Source: Methanospirillum hungatei
Lineage (GTDB): Archaea > Halobacteriota > Methanomicrobia > Methanomicrobiales > Methanospirillaceae
DNA length: 64,000 nucleotides
Assembly (NCBI RefSeq): GCF_019263745.1
Contig: NZ_CP077107.1
Location: 868,001 to 932,000 of the forward strand
Direction of reading: 5' to 3'
The notes under the pieces were generated by a model. It had not been told where the DNA came from. It worked only from the letters and a program-made list of their open reading frames with translations, and searched no databases. Shown piece by piece: positions 32,703-43,765 of this stretch. Position numbers and translations under genes: made by a program. The number at the start of each line of letters is the position of its first letter. Position 1 is the first letter of the stretch.

Positions 32703-34661
32703 TCAGATTGCATGAATACAATCTGTGCATACTGCATACCCAGTAGTATGACCATTATCCTCCCTCAGAGAGATGGTATATAGACCAGGGATTTTATATT
32801 CATGGTTTGGATTTTGCTCATTAGACGTTTCACCATCGCCAAACTGCCAATACCAGGAAGTTGGGTTACCAACAGAGAGATCATAAAACTGAACAGGGAG
32901 TGGGCAATTTCCGGATTCCGGGGTAAAATTAAACATCACATGAACCTGCCCAGGGATAGGACTTCCATTTGTACTTATGGTGTGATTTTTTTCTATTGAT
33001 GAAAAGGTATAGTTTAATAGCGGCCCTTGTGAAGTTCCATTAACTATCACATCATCAAGTATTGCACCTGGTTTTGCCTGAGTCAAATAATTCGCATCTG
33101 AATATTCAATATACGATTGATTTCCATATGGATGAACTAGCGACCATTCATCTGATGAAGATTCTATCGTATGGAGAGGAGTTACCATTACTACCCAGAA
33201 ATCTTCCCACCCATGATTTCCGGAAACATCACCATCATTGGAAAGGGAATCTCCTGCAATCAGATATCTTCCATCTGGTAAAGGTGTTAAACCATATGCA
33301 TCATCATAATCAGAACCTCCCAGACAATCCTGCCAGATAACATCACCAGTACTATCAAGTTTAACAATCCAGTAATCAGTTTCACCATGATTTCCGGAGA
33401 CATCACCATCAGTCGAAAACGAGTACCCGGCCACCATGTATCCCCCATCAGAAGTCTGAATGACAGAATATGATTGATCATCATCTGAACCTCCAAGACT
33501 CTTCTCCCAGAGCAAATTGCCGGAAATATCAAGTTTAATCACCCAGTAATCACTGTAGCCTTGATTTACGGAGACATTTCCATCATTTGAATACGAATAT
33601 CCGGCAACAAGATACCCACCGTCTGATGTTTCAATTACAGAATGTGCATAATCAAAATCTGAACCACCAAAACACTTCTGCCAGACAAGATTACCAGCGA
33701 TATCGGTTTTAACTACCCAGTAATCACTGTTTCCATGATTTCCGGAGACATTTCCATCATTTGAATACGTATATCCGGCAACAAGATACCCACCGTCTGA
33801 TGTCTCAAGGCCCGAATATGCATGGTCATAATCTGAACCCCCGAAACATTTTTGCCAGAGTAAATTGCCGGAAATATCAATTTTAACTATCCAGAAATCA
33901 CTGTCTCCATGATTACCTGAAACATCGCCATCGTCTGACCAGGTATATCCCGCAAGCAGATAACCGCCGTCAGAGGTTTCAATTACAGAGCGTGAACTTT
34001 CATCATCTGTTCCTCCCAGGCATTTCTGCCAGATAATATTCCCAGATGAATCAGTTTTCAAAGCCCACATGTCGGACCAGCCATGGTTACCAGAAACATC
34101 GCCATCATTTGAATCAGCAAATCCGGTAATCAGATATCCACCATCAGATGTCTGGATGGTGGAACGTGCACTATCAAAATCCGAGCCACCAAAGCATTTT
34201 TGCCACAATAGTATTCCCGAAGGGTTCAGTTTTACAATCCATGCATCGTCCCATCCATGATTCCCATTGACATCACCATCCGTTGAATATGTGTACCCCC
34301 CAATGAGATACCCATTATCAGCAGTCTGAAGAACTGACCAGACCCCATCAGTATCTGTTCCACCCAATGACCTCTGCCAGGTGCGTTCAACAACCGGGAT
34401 ACCTGCTGCAGAGAATATATCAGGATTTATTTGTTGATTCCTCAATTTTGAAAAATTATAACTCATTTCGGGGTGGAACCTCTCCCGGGAGAGGTTACCA
34501 TCTCTTTCTTCAAAAAAGAGTAAATTTTTGCCTCCTGAATCGAACATCCTGCTCTCCAGGGGGAGTTGTTCTTCAGCCATTACCGGAATGAACCCTCCAA
34601 GAAGAAGAACAAAACCCACACAGGTTATTATTTTGAAAAGTCCTGAATGTACCCCATCCAT
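32703..34661 (-). CDS. Secreted seven-repeat (propeller-like) protein with C-terminal PKD
   Basis: 652 residues. Signal peptide about residues 8-29 (ends VMAEE), a ~65-residue variable region, then seven consecutive repeats of ~58 residues (98-503) of the form LGGSDxDxAxSxIxTSDGG-Y-x-G-S-DGDVSGNHG-DYWVVKLD-G-W. The last repeat runs into a shared module (TIESSSDEWS, YGNQSYIE, NYTFSSIEKNHTIS), followed by one PKD domain (YWQFGDGETS) at the C-terminus. Seven four-stranded repeats fit a closed seven-bladed beta-propeller; that is inference. The acidic DGDVSGNHG turn could bind Ca2+. Paralogous with the genes at 36887-38875 and 38972-41032. Surface location and ligand are unproven. Confidence 0.82.
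   Translation of the reverse strand: MDGVHSGLFKIITCVGFVLLLGGFIPVMAEEQLPLESRMFDSGGKNLLFFEERDGNLSRERFHPEMSYNFSKLRNQQINPDIFSAAGIPVVERTWQRSLGGTDTDGVWSVLQTADNGYLIGGYTYSTDGDVNGNHGWDDAWIVKLNPSGILLWQKCFGGSDFDSARSTIQTSDGGYLITGFADSNDGDVSGNHGWSDMWALKTDSSGNIIWQKCLGGTDDESSRSVIETSDGGYLLAGYTWSDDGDVSGNHGDSDFWIVKIDISGNLLWQKCFGGSDYDHAYSGLETSDGGYLVAGYTYSNDGNVSGNHGNSDYWVVKTDIAGNLVWQKCFGGSDFDYAHSVIETSDGGYLVAGYSYSNDGNVSVNQGYSDYWVIKLDISGNLLWEKSLGGSDDDQSYSVIQTSDGGYMVAGYSFSTDGDVSGNHGETDYWIVKLDSTGDVIWQDCLGGSDYDDAYGLTPLPDGRYLIAGDSLSNDGDVSGNHGWEDFWVVMVTPLHTIESSSDEWSLVHPYGNQSYIEYSDANYLTQAKPGAILDDVIVNGTSQGPLLNYTFSSIEKNHTISTNGSPIPGQVHVMFNFTPESGNCPLPVQFYDLSVGNPTSWYWQFGDGETSNEQNPNHEYKIPGLYTISLREDNGHTTGYAVCTDCIHAI
32958..33342 (-). 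repeat. Near-identical segment shared with 37146-37526 (duplication or conversion tract)
   Basis: About 385 bases encoding the seventh repeat and the following NHTIS module align with 37146-37526 with few differences, including silent sites. The surrounding repeats are much less alike at the DNA level, so this part was copied or homogenised recently. Confidence 0.7.
33153..34370 (-). repeat. Seven tandem ~174-base coding repeats
   Basis: Each unit encodes one ~58-residue blade. The most constant DNA is the complement of the DGDVSGNHG turn, read on the plus strand as CCATGATTTCCGGAAACATC or close variants, recurring about every 174 bases. Confidence 0.75.
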
Positions 34662-34826: not shown

Positions 34827-36890
34827 CTATTGAACTGTAATACAATTATTACAGACTGAATACCCTCCGGTTCCATCATTATATACACGGAGTGAGACCG
34901 TAAACGTTCCCGGATTGGTATACTGGTGAACCGGATCCTTTTCAGTCGAACTCTCCCCGTCGCCAAACTGCCAGTACCAGGAGGTTGGATCCCCAACAGA
35001 TAAATCAATAAACTGTACTTTCTGGGGAGGATTACCATTCTTTGGAAACATATCAAATCGTGTATGAATTTGTCCCGGAATTGGACTTCCAATTGTCTGA
35101 ATCTCATGATTACCGTCAACATCAAAAAATGTCCAATTTAAAATCGGACCTTTCCAATCATGATCTACGGTAATATTTTCCAATTCGGCACCAGGTTTTG
35201 CAAAATTTAAGAATGATGCGTTTGAAAAACGAGGTGCTAATACTTCACCTGATGGTGAAGGATATGTCCAGGCATCACCCGAAGCAGATATGTCATAGAG
35301 GCTCCGGACAAGAGGAGCAATATCATAAACACCGGAGTTAGGAATTAATTCATACGAAGTCGACGAATATCCCTCTTTTATAGGTTCCTGCAAGTCAGAC
35401 CAGCCACTTCTCGTCAAGTTACTCCAGTAATTTCCAGCAATATTCGGTCCATTAATAATGTTCAATCCCGGTTCTGGCCCTTTGGGATTTGTCCAACCAT
35501 AATATGATAACGTCCCGGAGCCTCCAATATTCACTAAATTACCGAGATAATTATCATAAATAAAGCCCGAACCCTCATCCCATCCACCTGAATCAATAAA
35601 AATGCCGCAATCACCAGAAGACAGGATCTGATTTTGATTCACATGAATATTCACACTATTATCCGGAAGATAAATACCAATCCAATTATCATCAATGAAA
35701 TTTTTTGAAATGTTTGAATTACCCCATCCATTAATTCCACAATCACCATTATGGGTAATAGTATTATTGTGAATTTCTGATGAACGGAGTGTGAATATAC
35801 CAGAATATAGATTATTACTAACAGAATTATTAATAATAGTCACAAAATTCGAAAGATCTATGCCTATCCCCTGGTTTTCAAATACATTATTATCTCTGAC
35901 ATCCGCATTATTTCCTGCAATTAAACCGCCATATTGATTATTGTATATGGTACAATTTTTTACACTGACCATATTGCCTAACCAGATACCATATTTCTGA
36001 TTACCTGAAACAACATTATCTGCAAGAGTAGTTGTATGGCCGGTAAAAATTCCTGAACCTTTATTATTTAAGACAGTATTACCATGAATCGTCGAAAATC
36101 TCCCCGTTGATATGCCATCATTACCATTTGATTCAACTAAATTAGAGAAAAAATCCACATAGTTTGTTGCTTTAATTCCATACCTGATATTATGAGAGAT
36201 AATATTATCAGAAACCGTTGCATTATTCCATACTAAAACGCCATCTCTTCCATTTCCGAAAATTTCATTTCCTGTTATTTCAACAAAATCCTGACTATTA
36301 ATCCCGTTTCGTCCATTATCTGCAATCAGGTTATCAGAAAAGATGTGATAAATACTTGTTGTGTTGATTCCAGAATATGTATTTCCTTTGATAATATTGT
36401 TAGATATTGTATTATTATTCCCCTTTACATAAACTCCATTGCCGGAATTGAAGCTGACATTATTTTTTATAACATCACAATAATTACCATATAATATCAT
36501 TCCGGTTTCAAATCCGGAAATAGAAGTGAAATTTTCCACCCTTGCATAAGCTGCATGTGAGTTGGATATAATACCTGTACCGTCATTTCCGGATAATTCA
36601 GGCTCATTTCCATTCAAATGAATATCCGAGCCATTTATAATTATTGCAGCATCAGAACCGGAATATGCCAGATTATCTGAAAGAACATATGAACCAGCTC
36701 CGGAAATGATAATGTGACCGTTTTCATATGTTCCAGAAAAAATATAATCAGGTCCACTATGACCGGGAATGAGTTCAGTTCCATCTGCCTGAACTACATA
36801 CTCCGGATAGAGTGGTGTAGCACTTCCATTTAAGGAGATAAATGCGAAGAAGCTTATCAACAGCACAATCCATCCCTTTTTTTTTATCAT
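34827..36890 (-). CDS. Secreted NosD-like right-handed beta-helix protein with C-terminal PKD
   Basis: About 687 residues from the ATG at 36890 (MIKKKGW), which has GGTGAATCC upstream and overlaps the preceding stop as ATGA, so translation is coupled to the propeller gene. A signal peptide (~5-24) is followed by a beta-solenoid from about 60 to 430 of ~22-residue NosD/PbH1-type repeats rich in N and G (NTISNNIIKGN, NNSVSNNLYSGI). Then come a linker ending GVYDIAPL, the module also found in the propeller proteins (AKPGAELENITV, NHEIQTIGSPIPGQIH) and one PKD domain (YWQFGDGESS). Such solenoids often bind or cleave polysaccharide; no catalytic residues are evident. Longer in-frame start at 36908 is less likely. 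Confidence 0.8.
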   Translation of the reverse strand: MIKKKGWIVLLISFFAFISLNGSATPLYPEYVVQADGTELIPGHSGPDYIFSGTYENGHIIISGAGSYVLSDNLAYSGSDAAIIINGSDIHLNGNEPELSGNDGTGIISNSHAAYARVENFTSISGFETGMILYGNYCDVIKNNVSFNSGNGVYVKGNNNTISNNIIKGNTYSGINTTSIYHIFSDNLIADNGRNGINSQDFVEITGNEIFGNGRDGVLVWNNATVSDNIISHNIRYGIKATNYVDFFSNLVESNGNDGISTGRFSTIHGNTVLNNKGSGIFTGHTTTLADNVVSGNQKYGIWLGNMVSVKNCTIYNNQYGGLIAGNNADVRDNNVFENQGIGIDLSNFVTIINNSVSNNLYSGIFTLRSSEIHNNTITHNGDCGINGWGNSNISKNFIDDNWIGIYLPDNSVNIHVNQNQILSSGDCGIFIDSGGWDEGSGFIYDNYLGNLVNIGGSGTLSYYGWTNPKGPEPGLNIINGPNIAGNYWSNLTRSGWSDLQEPIKEGYSSTSYELIPNSGVYDIAPLVRSLYDISASGDAWTYPSPSGEVLAPRFSNASFLNFAKPGAELENITVDHDWKGPILNWTFFDVDGNHEIQTIGSPIPGQIHTRFDMFPKNGNPPQKVQFIDLSVGDPTSWYWQFGDGESSTEKDPVHQYTNPGTFTVSLRVYNDGTGGYSVCNNCITVQ

Positions 36891-37145
36891 GGATTCACCG
36901 TTACACACCCATTACAAACAGTATAACCTCCGGTTTTTTCATTAAAGGCACGAAGACTTACAGTATAGGTTCCCGGAACTTTATATTCATGTTCCGGATT
37001 TTGCTTATAAGATATCGAACCATCTCCAAACTGCCACTCCCAGGAAGTAGGGTTTCCCACCGATAAATCAATAAAAATTACATTTAATGGATTCGTCCCG
37101 ATAGGATTAGAAATTTGAAACATAGCATGAATCTGGCCGGGTATG

Positions 37146-37526
37146 GGACTTCCATTCGTGCTTATTGTGTGATTTTTTTCAATTGATGAAAAGGTATAGT
37201 TCAATAACGGCCCTTGTGAAGTTCCATTTACTATCACATCATCAAGTATTGCACCTGGTTTTCCCTGAGTCAAATAATTGGCATCTGAATTTTCGATATA
37301 CGACTGATTCCCATATGGATGAACTACCGACCATGAATCAGATGATGATTCTATCGTGTGGAGAGGAGTTACCATTACTACCCAGAAGTCTTCCCACCCA
37401 TGATTTCCGGAAACATCACCATCATTGGAAGAGGTATCTCCTGCAATCAGATATCTTCCATCTGATAAAGGTGTTATACTATATGCATCATCATAATATG
37501 AACCTCCCAAGCATTCCTGCCAGAGA
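37146..37526 (-). repeat. Near-identical segment shared with 32958-33342; inner 71 bases also shared with 39273-39343
   Basis: Second copy of the conversion tract. Bases 37191-37261 are identical to 39273-39343 at all 71 positions and differ at three from the corresponding stretch starting at 33004. They encode the AILDDVIVNGTSQGPLLNYT segment. Confidence 0.75.
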
Positions 37527-38557
37527 AGGTTTCCGTAATTATCAAGCTTTATTATCCAGTAATCACTCGAACCATGGTTTCCTGAGACATCATCATCATT
37601 GGACATAGTATACCCACAAACTAGAAATCCTTTATCAAACGTTTGAATAATTGACATAGGAACATCTAATGAAGTTCCTCCAAAAGATTTATCCCAAATT
37701 ATTGAACCATCAGAGTCCAATTTCACAAGCCAGTAATCAACAAAACCATGATTAGATGTGACATCACCATCAGTCGAAAGTGAGCCTCCAGCAACGATAT
37801 ATTTTTCATCAAAGGTTTCTATTATTTGAAATGCAGCATCACTCGATGAACCGCCAAATGATTTTTCCCAAAGAATATTACCGGATTGATCAATTTTTAC
37901 TATCCAGTAATCACTCCAACCATGATTATTGGTAACATCTCCGTCTGATGAATAAGTCATTCCTCCAATTAAATAATTTCCATCGTGCGTCTGATATACT
38001 GAATTCGCTTCATCATAATCAGATCCACCAAGACATTTTTGCCAGATGATATTACCGGTATTATCTAATTTTACTACCCAAAAGTCTTCTTCGCCATGAT
38101 TTCCAGAAACATCTCCATCATTGGACCGAGTATTCCCGGCAACTAAAAATCCTCCATCATTTGTTTCAACTACTGAAGATGCACTTTCATCATCTGTGCC
38201 ACCAAGACATTTCTGCCAGATAATATTGCCCATACTGTCAATCTTTACTACCCACAAGTCATCCCGACCATGGTTTCCAGATACATCACCATCATTGGAA
38301 CCTGTGGATCCAGTGAGTAAAAAACCTCCATCTGATGTCTGAATTATTGACAGGGTACCATCATAATCAGAGCCACCATAGCATTTCTGCCAGACAAGAG
38401 TACCGGCATCATTCAATTTAACGATCCATGCATCTACCTTTCCATGATTTCCGGAAACATCACCATCATTGGACCACGTATACCCACCAATTATAAATCC
38501 CCCGTCAATTGATTGGAGCGATGACCATACCTTGTCAGTATCTGTTCCACCAAGAGG
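37345..38557 (-). repeat. Seven tandem ~174-base coding repeats
   Basis: Blades of the interrupted propeller gene, with the same spacing and the same conserved turn as at 33153-34370; more divergent in blades 4-6. Confidence 0.7.
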
Positions 38558-38692
38558 TCTCTGCCAGGTTCGTTCAATAAACGGGCTCTGTATATGAGAG
38601 GCCATGGATGGAGAGGAAGTAGAATCATTTAATAACTTACTACGAATATTCAGACTTGTTGAGTTTAAGGATCTTTTCCAATATCGGGAACT

Positions 38693-38695
38693 CTA
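38693..38695 (-). other. In-frame amber (TAG) codon interrupting the propeller gene
   Basis: Plus-strand CTA at 38693-38695. The distance from the ATG at 38875 to the ATG at 38605 is 270 bases, exactly 90 codons, so there is no frameshift, and the only stop between them is this TAG. Confidence 0.85.
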
Positions 38696-38971
38696 ATTTT
38701 CAATGATTTTGTCTTTATCAAGAAAATATCCTGGGAAATCAGGAGTGAATCTAGAAAACTCACTCTGTCTGAAACCAATATTATCCTCTGCAACAACTGA
38801 TATTGCCCCACCAGATAAAAGGAGGAATCCTATGGTAACGGATAATAAAAGCATCCCTGACCGCACACCCTTCATACATTTCCTTTCATTTTTAAGATGA
38901 TTATATTTACGGAAACGGATATTAGCAATTTTGATTAAAAAATCTGAATCAACGATAAAATTTGAAAAAAA

Positions 38972-41032
38972 TTAATTTACTTCAATGCAACCAGTACAAG
39001 AGTTAAATCCGCTGGTTTGATTATTGAAAGCCTGAAGTGATACGGTATAAGATCCAGGATTTCTATACGTATGAGATGGCTCTTTTTCGATTGATGTTCC
39101 ACCATCACCAAACTGCCAAAACCAAGAAGTAGGATTTCCTAATGACATATCAGAGAATGTAACATCCAGGGGATGCATCCCGGAAGTAGGAGTAATATTA
39201 AACATTACATGGACTTGATCTTTTACAGGATTACCATATGTATGAATAGAGTGATTAGATGCAATAGATTGGAAGGTATAGTTCAATAACGGCCCTTGTG
39301 AAGTTCCATTTACTATCACATCATCAAGTATTGCACCTGGTTTCCCTTGAGTAATATATGCTGCATTACTTCCTTCAATATATGACAGGTTTCCATGGGG
39401 ATACACAATTGACCATTCATCTGAAGCAGATTCAACCGAGTACCAAACGCTTACCTGGACAAGCCAGTAATCCCACCAACCATGGTTTCCTGATACATCA
39501 CCATCAATGGATTCAGAGATACCAGTGATACAATAACTCTGATCTGTGTTCAGAATGAGATTAAAACCATAATCATAATTTGATCCTCCAAAACACTTTT
39601 CCCATTCCAGTGTTCCTAAAGAATTTATTGAAATTAGCCAGTAATCTTGGGCCCCATGATTTTCGCTCACGTCACCATCAGTTGAATGAGTGGACCCTGC
39701 CACAGCGTATCCCCCGGTAGGACTCATTACTGCTGAATAAGCCTTTTCATAAGATGAACCACCAAAACACTTCTGCCACTCAATCAATCCTGCTGAATCA
39801 AGTTTAACAATCCAGTAATCTAATCCTCCGTGGTTACCAGTTACATTGCCATCATTGGATTCTGTGCTCCCAATAAGCAAATATCCACCGTCACGTGTCT
39901 GGATCGCAGAGTTCAGTAGCTCATCCTTCGATCCCCCAAGAGATTTCTCAAAGACCAATTCACCCTGGCTATTCAGTTTCACCACCCAATAGTCAAATCC
40001 ACCATGATTTCCTGTAACATTTCCATTTCGCGATAGAGATTCTCCTCCAATAAAGTATCCCTTATCAACAGTTTCTATAGCAGAAACAGCATAATCCCAG
40101 CTTGACCCACCAAGACACTTATTCCAGAGAATCTTTCCCGATGAATTTAATTTCACTATCCAATAGTCATATGTACCGATATGTCCGGACACATCACCAT
40201 CATCAGACCAGGTGTATCCACCTATGAGGTATCCCCCATCTGAAGTCTGTTTTATAGATCTTGCCTCATCCGTTTTTGATCCACCAAGACATTTCTGCCA
40301 TATGAGATTACCATGAGTATCTAGTTTTATCACCCAATAGTCAAATCCACCATGGTTTGTAGTGATATCTCCATCTGTAGAGTCAGTATATCCGGCAATC
40401 AGATATTCACCCGCATTATTTTGAATAACTGACATCGCATAATCATCCCCGGAACCTCCGAGAGATTTTGCCCATTCAAGGTTTCTTGCAGAATCCAATT
40501 TTGCGATCCAAATATCCCATCCGCCAAAAAATTCTTTGATATCGCCATCTTCAGAATATGTGTATCCTGCAACAATGTAACCACCATCTGCAGTCTGTGC
40601 CGCTGAGTAGGTCATCTCATCTTTTGAACCACCTAAACTCCTATCCCAATCCACCTTAAATTCAGGCAACCGTGTCCCAGATCGCATATCCAAGTCGGAT
40701 AAAAAATTACTTGATATATTTGATGTTTTATTGCTATTCATCGACGGAGACAGAAGTGTTTCATGCAATAGAGAATCAGAATAAGCTGATTGCTCACTCC
40801 TCCATAATTCATTATTAATACCAGAATGAATTGATGAGTTATTCACCTCTGTACCCTGACTAATATTATCTGCAGATACAAATCCAAATCCTGCCATAAA
40901 AAAGCATATACAGACAATAACACAAGATAAGGAAATTCTCATATGATTTCGTAAAAAAATGGATCGAATATTGCTTTTACCAGCTTTTTGATCCATTGAG
41001 TCAAACAGACCCCCCCTTATATTATCCATCAT
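38972..41032 (-). CDS. Secreted seven-repeat (propeller-like) protein with C-terminal PKD
   Basis: 686 residues; AGGGGA precedes the ATG. An unusually long N-region (about 30 residues) leads to the hydrophobic signal (MRISLSCVIVCICFFMAGFG, ~31-50). A Ser/Asn-rich stretch is followed by seven ~58-residue repeats (~132-538), from LGGSKDEMTYS to FGGSNYDYGFN, the AILDDVIVNG/NHSIH module and one PKD domain (FWQFGDGGTS). Repeats are more divergent from the other two paralogues than those are from each other, with ITTNHGG or VTGNHGG replacing VSGNHG in several blades. Monocistronic, with about 290 bases of AT-rich sequence upstream. Predicted extracellular; ligand unknown. Confidence 0.82.
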   Translation of the reverse strand: MMDNIRGGLFDSMDQKAGKSNIRSIFLRNHMRISLSCVIVCICFFMAGFGFVSADNISQGTEVNNSSIHSGINNELWRSEQSAYSDSLLHETLLSPSMNSNKTSNISSNFLSDLDMRSGTRLPEFKVDWDRSLGGSKDEMTYSAAQTADGGYIVAGYTYSEDGDIKEFFGGWDIWIAKLDSARNLEWAKSLGGSGDDYAMSVIQNNAGEYLIAGYTDSTDGDITTNHGGFDYWVIKLDTHGNLIWQKCLGGSKTDEARSIKQTSDGGYLIGGYTWSDDGDVSGHIGTYDYWIVKLNSSGKILWNKCLGGSSWDYAVSAIETVDKGYFIGGESLSRNGNVTGNHGGFDYWVVKLNSQGELVFEKSLGGSKDELLNSAIQTRDGGYLLIGSTESNDGNVTGNHGGLDYWIVKLDSAGLIEWQKCFGGSSYEKAYSAVMSPTGGYAVAGSTHSTDGDVSENHGAQDYWLISINSLGTLEWEKCFGGSNYDYGFNLILNTDQSYCITGISESIDGDVSGNHGWWDYWLVQVSVWYSVESASDEWSIVYPHGNLSYIEGSNAAYITQGKPGAILDDVIVNGTSQGPLLNYTFQSIASNHSIHTYGNPVKDQVHVMFNITPTSGMHPLDVTFSDMSLGNPTSWFWQFGDGGTSIEKEPSHTYRNPGSYTVSLQAFNNQTSGFNSCTGCIEVN
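39418..40639 (-). repeat. Seven tandem ~174-base coding repeats
   Basis: Blades of the third propeller gene. The repeats are recognisable mainly in protein; the DNA is more diverged than in the other two arrays. Confidence 0.7.
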
Positions 41033-43283: not shown

Positions 43284-43368
43284 TGCGAGAGAAGGGATTT
43301 GAACCCTTGGATTCCTTCGAAACCGGATCTTAAGTCCGGCCCATTTGGCCAGGCTTTGGTACCCTCGC
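43284..43368 (-). tRNA. tRNA-Leu (anticodon UAA)
   Basis: The minus strand folds as a class II tRNA: a 7-bp acceptor stem of GCGAGGG with CTCTCGC (one G-U), an anticodon stem CCGGA/TCCGG around the loop CTTAAGA (anticodon TAA), a long variable arm and a T loop GTTCAAATC. The discriminator base is A, as expected for Leu. CCA is not encoded. No intron. Confidence 0.93.
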
Positions 43369-43558
43369 GCCTTATTACATTGGAAGCCCTGCTATTAGAA
43401 AGTATTCTGTCATCCCCTACGAAATCATCTAAAAACTCGAGACCCAAGAATTTGATCTTCTTTGTAAATCATATCGCGGAAAAAATCCCTCTTAATTCAC
43501 ATTTCAAAAAATGCGCAGCCATGAAAAATAATATCTGGGAATTTACACAAAAAAAGAC

Positions 43559-43765
43559 TCAAATTGACTTTAGAGCCATTTCAATATCTTCTTTTTTAAT
43601 TGTCTTTCTTCCCGCATGTAGCGCCAGTTTATTAGCTTCTTTAACAAGTTTTCCGAGATAGGTCTCGGTTTTTTCAACTAATACCGCTGCTGCATCGCTT
43701 CCTACACGTTCAGCCCCACTCGATTTTGCAATTCTTACAACTGCTGCAATTGGCAAATCTGTCAT
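43559..43765 (-). CDS. Archaeal histone (HMfB-type)
   Basis: 68 residues, the full length of a single archaeal histone fold. The opening LPIAAVVRIAKSSGAERVG, central VEKTETYLGKLVKEANKLA and ending RKTIKKEDIEMALK are diagnostic. It forms dimers that stack on DNA into hypernucleosomes. GGGGTAG lies a few bases before the ATG and a TATA box about 38 bases before it, giving a short leader. No stalk or tail extension is present. Confidence 0.96.
   Translation of the reverse strand: MTDLPIAAVVRIAKSSGAERVGSDAAAVLVEKTETYLGKLVKEANKLALHAGRKTIKKEDIEMALKSI

Follow-up and report, generated by a model that had tools for sequence, protein, structure and literature searches.

A single in-frame TAG between the signal peptide and the propeller body of a PKD surface-protein gene in Methanospirillum hungatei

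Gene A and its intact relatives

Within the stretch of Methanospirillum hungatei DNA analysed here as a whole (64,000 nucleotides, hereafter the window), a minus-strand gene that we call gene A is divided by one stop codon (Table 1). Sixty sense codons from ATG 38875 lead to the TAG, after which 29 open in-frame codons, ATG 38605 and an unbroken ORF of 572 codons follow as far as TGA 36889-36887. Sequence and translation bear out an earlier sequence-only reading in that the two ATGs lie 90 codons apart with this TAG as the only stop between them, and a frameshift could be rejected because both sides of the TAG share one frame. The leader has the basic start and long hydrophobic core of a Sec-type signal peptide, as judged by eye and by alignment, and is preceded by a region common to the compared B-type copies that may serve as promoter.

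The body, which the same reading rightly described as well preserved, is one uninterrupted ORF with seven "NHG..D.W" repeats and a PKD domain. A predicted model from the three paralogues of the window shows 28 strands, or seven times four, ahead of the PKD part, at the modest confidence of a mean pLDDT of 62. Among solved structures, its best match in a fold search is the propeller enzyme CylK (PDB 7fh6, 7ron; 26% identity over the alignment), a cyanobacterial enzyme unlike gene A, for which no catalytic role is implied. The archaeal surface-layer protein of PDB 1l0q, at rank 8, shares with gene A a beta-propeller followed by PKD but differs in its YVTN-type repeats, with 13% identity over the alignment. 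Signal peptide (by eye and alignment), seven-bladed propeller (by model) and PKD domain thus place gene A among the propeller-PKD surface proteins; the evidence reaches as far as an exported protein of this kind and not to the adhesin that had been proposed.

Two paralogues in the window, B and C, are intact, as is a B-type copy in a congeneric genome (G002; 61% identity). Paralogue B and the G002 copy resemble gene A in upstream region, signal peptide, linker, seven repeats and PKD domain, and signal peptide, linker and body of A all align with both. They differ from it in a linker without stop, and in B, C and the G002 copy alike signal peptide, linker and body lie within one ORF. Because upstream region, signal peptide, linker position and body are homologous to those of intact relatives, leader and body of A can be taken as one ancestral gene, and we regard A as an interrupted gene, that is, an in-frame stop inside a gene whose relatives are uninterrupted. 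The TAG sits in the fast-evolving linker, which is less conserved than any other part (17% amino acid identity between A and B over that 40-column block). Of 12 genomes of the genus, only its own contains a match to the leader of gene A (0/11 others), and a plasmid collection yielded no match. A contig scan for strain relatives returned distant relatives only, from records among which near ones may be left out, and a search of the open-access literature found no paper on gene A. Among the matches listed, four relatives from other genomes carry premature stops, which are TGA or TAA and never TAG.

The sequence behind the TAG had been called coding-like. Its 29 codons have a codon-usage score of -0.186, which 99.8% of 648 in-frame pieces exceed and which is not above that of off-frame pieces. 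The linker of B, an intact gene, does equally poorly in its true frame (-0.20 to -0.15 vs. -0.16 for the stretch of A). Codon usage therefore says nothing either way on this stretch and lends no support to the coding-like label, for which homology of the flanks is the evidence; a run of about 30 open codons at 41% GC is in itself unsurprising. Two compensating frameshifts, considered for the poor in-frame score, were rejected since the other frames hold two to three stops and the linker of B scores as badly.

The next gene overlaps the stop of gene A by an ATGA, as expected from the earlier proposal that the two are coupled, and the coupling itself is plausible. Both genes belong to a minus-strand run of long ORFs (ca. 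12583-42764), many with PKD domains and including propeller and beta-helix types, which is adjoined by an archaeal histone gene (43559-43765, minus strand). With 134 PKD_4 matches in the genome, the surface proteome of this organism seems to be PKD-rich.

Table 1. Features of gene A and its neighbourhood (positions in the window)
Feature	Position	Strand	Basis
Intact paralogue B, with 68-69% identity to the body of A	32703..34661	-	alignment
Next gene, right-handed beta-helix (NosD-like) + PKD, intact	34827..36890	-	ORF, domain search
ATGA overlap of gene A stop and beta-helix gene start	36887..36890	-	sequence
Gene A body, seven-repeat beta-propeller + one PKD domain, without additional lesion	36887..38605	-	ORF, repeats, predicted model
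A/B gene-conversion tract of 379 nt with 91.8% identity to B 32959-33337	A 37146..37524	-	alignment, segment score
80-bp piece of A, 97.5% identical to C 39273-39352	A 37191..37270	-	alignment
Remainder of gene A linker (signal peptide to propeller), 29 open in-frame codons	38606..38692	-	translation, alignment, codon usage
Sole in-frame TAG, codon 61 of gene A	38693..38695	-	sequence, translation
Gene A leader ORF of 60 codons with Sec-type signal peptide + linker start	38696..38875	-	translation; aligned with signal peptides of B and G002 copy
Conserved upstream region, TATAAT-rich stretch + purine-rich AAGGA-like ribosome site	38876..38920	-	alignment
Intact paralogue C, with 51% identity to A across the aligned length	38972..41032	-	alignment

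Gene conversion and selection along the body

A short tract of the body is far more similar between A and B than its surroundings, with a maximal-segment score of 255 vs. a highest value of 75 in 1000 codon-column shuffles, while nucleotide identity outside the tract is 28-73% per 40-codon block. Site patterns inside the tract group A with B (A=B 106 vs. B=G002 14), whereas B=G002 prevails over A=B in the leader (102/19) and in two body blocks (94/45 and 133/44); the stretch beyond the tract is flat at 36/42/34 and thus uninformative. These patterns support an exchange between A and B by recent gene conversion. Between B and the G002 copy, dN is 0.146 for the body but 0.296 for the tract, whereas A and the G002 copy give similar values for both (0.328 and 0.305), suggesting that the conversion ran from A to B. 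The 80-bp piece of A in Table 1 marks a second recent conversion tract, shared with C.

Selection on gene A was estimated as NG86 dN/dS against B, which is 0.209 over the body, where dS is near saturation at 1.5, and 0.205 within the tract (19 synonymous and 14 non-synonymous differences). An unconstrained copy would be expected to show a much higher value in the tract, so that constraint on A seems to have persisted through most of the period after the exchange. No second lesion is present across the ca. 600 codons of the gene, and a simple calculation limits the age of a neutral inactivation to at most ca. 1.3-3.5% divergence at the 95% level, a range that depends on the assumed transition bias and indel rate. 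In Tajima relative-rate comparisons with C as outgroup, 50 changes fell to A vs. 32 to B (chi-square 3.95) and 48 to A vs. 34 to the G002 copy (chi-square 2.39), both marginal. This slight excess adds no clear independent evidence for relaxed selection and fits a stop that is very young or not real, the same two options to which the absence of a second lesion and a dN/dS of about 0.2 even inside the conversion tract point.

Other explanations for the TAG

An error of sequencing or assembly consensus, which would leave gene A intact and ordinary, is unlikely but deserves serious weight, given that one substitution suffices and would look identical, and that the body is free of additional lesions and its selection not clearly relaxed. 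Against it stands the quality of the record, a genome in one contig at 99.3% completeness in which all 134 PKD-domain matches and all 119 body matches lack internal stops, so that genes of this type are not broadly affected by errors in the record; moreover, the commonest long-read errors are of another kind than substitutions outside homopolymers.

Low-level readthrough by a near-cognate tRNA, with some full-length protein exported and the TAG acting as a dampener, would explain the purifying-selection signature kept in the body and the frame that is open on both sides of the stop. A role of this kind has been put forward as a general idea for bacterial in-frame stops that are conserved, in the part of the paper available to us (PMC7918605). 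The stop of gene A, however, shows no conservation among B, C, the G002 copy and the other 11 genomes of the genus: the three copies have no stop at this place and those 11 genomes no match to the leader. The RNA 3' of the TAG folds no better than shuffled sequences (z 1.09 and 1.04) and thus offers neither unusual stability nor a stimulatory structure, no slippage tract was seen at the TAG, and the genome has no CUA tRNA (see below). We therefore consider readthrough improbable. Phase-variable-like loss, another option raised in the sequence-only reading, has no basis in the sequence, as no repeat or homopolymer tract was found by eye around the TAG and no length change is involved.

It is even harder to believe that the body is deliberately made as a cytoplasmic protein starting at ATG 38605 and that the signal-peptide ORF is a separate entity. 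A complete propeller-PKD frame does begin at this ATG, but the bases 5' of it are pyrimidine-rich with no purine-rich ribosome site, signal peptide and body share one ORF in the compared relatives, and PKD domains are typically extracellular.

Of the features at this locus, only gene conversion could carry a more interesting story, in which A would be a silenced, non-exported donor whose segments are copied into the expressed and exported B and C to diversify surface proteins, somewhat like silent cassettes. Nothing links the TAG to gene conversion at the A/B/C locus, a silencing of A as part of such a donor scheme is unsupported, and we rate this scenario as very unlikely.

Insertion of pyrrolysine is suggested by little more than an in-frame TAG in a methanogen, and the sequence-only reading had seen no pyrrolysine machinery in the window, a picture that now extends to the entire genome. 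PylS gave four sub-threshold matches there (19-35 bits vs. a cut-off of 178) and exceeded the cut-off in none of the 12 genomes of the genus, its own included, while one of 14 control genomes, presumably Methanosarcina acetivorans, did so; PylD had no match in the genome. The tRNA search, in which 150 of 185 first-look candidates were scored, returned 52 matches, all above the gathering score. ARAGORN made 56 detections on 49 tRNA-bearing loci, or 52 after removal of four double detections in overlapping loci, and none of these 52 distinct tRNA genes has a CUA, UUA or UCA anticodon. The same search revealed four tRNA-Ala(UGC)/tRNA-Cys(GCA) pairs, each ca. 3.2 kb apart (G000:C1 6183-9476, 1356200-1359493, 1362140-1365433 and 1982658-1985951), which probably mark as many rRNA operons, including two arranged in close tandem. 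TAG is also the ordinary stop of 6 of the 33 selected ORFs of at least 100 amino acids in the window, although the ORF at 43299-43661, counted among these six, overlaps the histone gene and is unlikely to be a real gene. A 2011 survey table, in the part available to us, gives Methanospirillum hungatei and the other Methanomicrobiales as lacking pylS (PMC3037878). Given further that methylamine methyltransferases are a different class from propeller surface proteins, pyrrolysine at this TAG can practically be dismissed. Selenocysteine, which pertains to TGA and not TAG, is not applicable to gene A because of the identity of its stop.

A recent nonsense mutation as the favored reading

Recent nonsense mutation has the strongest support among the options of the sequence-only reading, while readthrough, with or without pyrrolysine, found no support genome-wide and phase variation none at the locus. 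We thus think it probable that the TAG is a recent nonsense mutation which stops the export of one member of a redundant family of exported propeller-PKD proteins. According to this model, A would be one of three neighboring paralogues (C, A, B) for secreted seven-bladed propeller-PKD proteins in which codon 61, part of the variable linker, became TAG by a recent point mutation. Ribosomes that begin at the normal start would make no more than a 60-residue signal-peptide fragment. Any propeller body made from the internal ATG would lack a signal peptide and stay in the cytoplasm, so that little or none of the protein should be exported. The loss would be tolerable thanks to the redundancy of A with B and C. 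The correct base call, the lost expression, the buffering by redundancy and a possible polarity on the overlapping beta-helix gene are what we infer as parts of this model.

By itself gene A is of little weight, as one interrupted gene in a redundant family of surface proteins. Its TAG is a useful negative for those who seek TAG recoding in lineages not known to use pyrrolysine. How surface proteins of this group of methanogens may diversify is indicated by the recent segmental conversion among adjacent propeller genes. The nearest comparison is with the nonsense-interrupted prokaryotic genes of Belinky et al. 2021, who, in the part of their paper available to us, argue for a function of in-frame stops from their evolutionary conservation (PMC7918605). 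Unlike those conserved stops, that of gene A is seen in one genome only, but gene A shares with the genes described there a single in-frame stop and a body with dN/dS well below 1.
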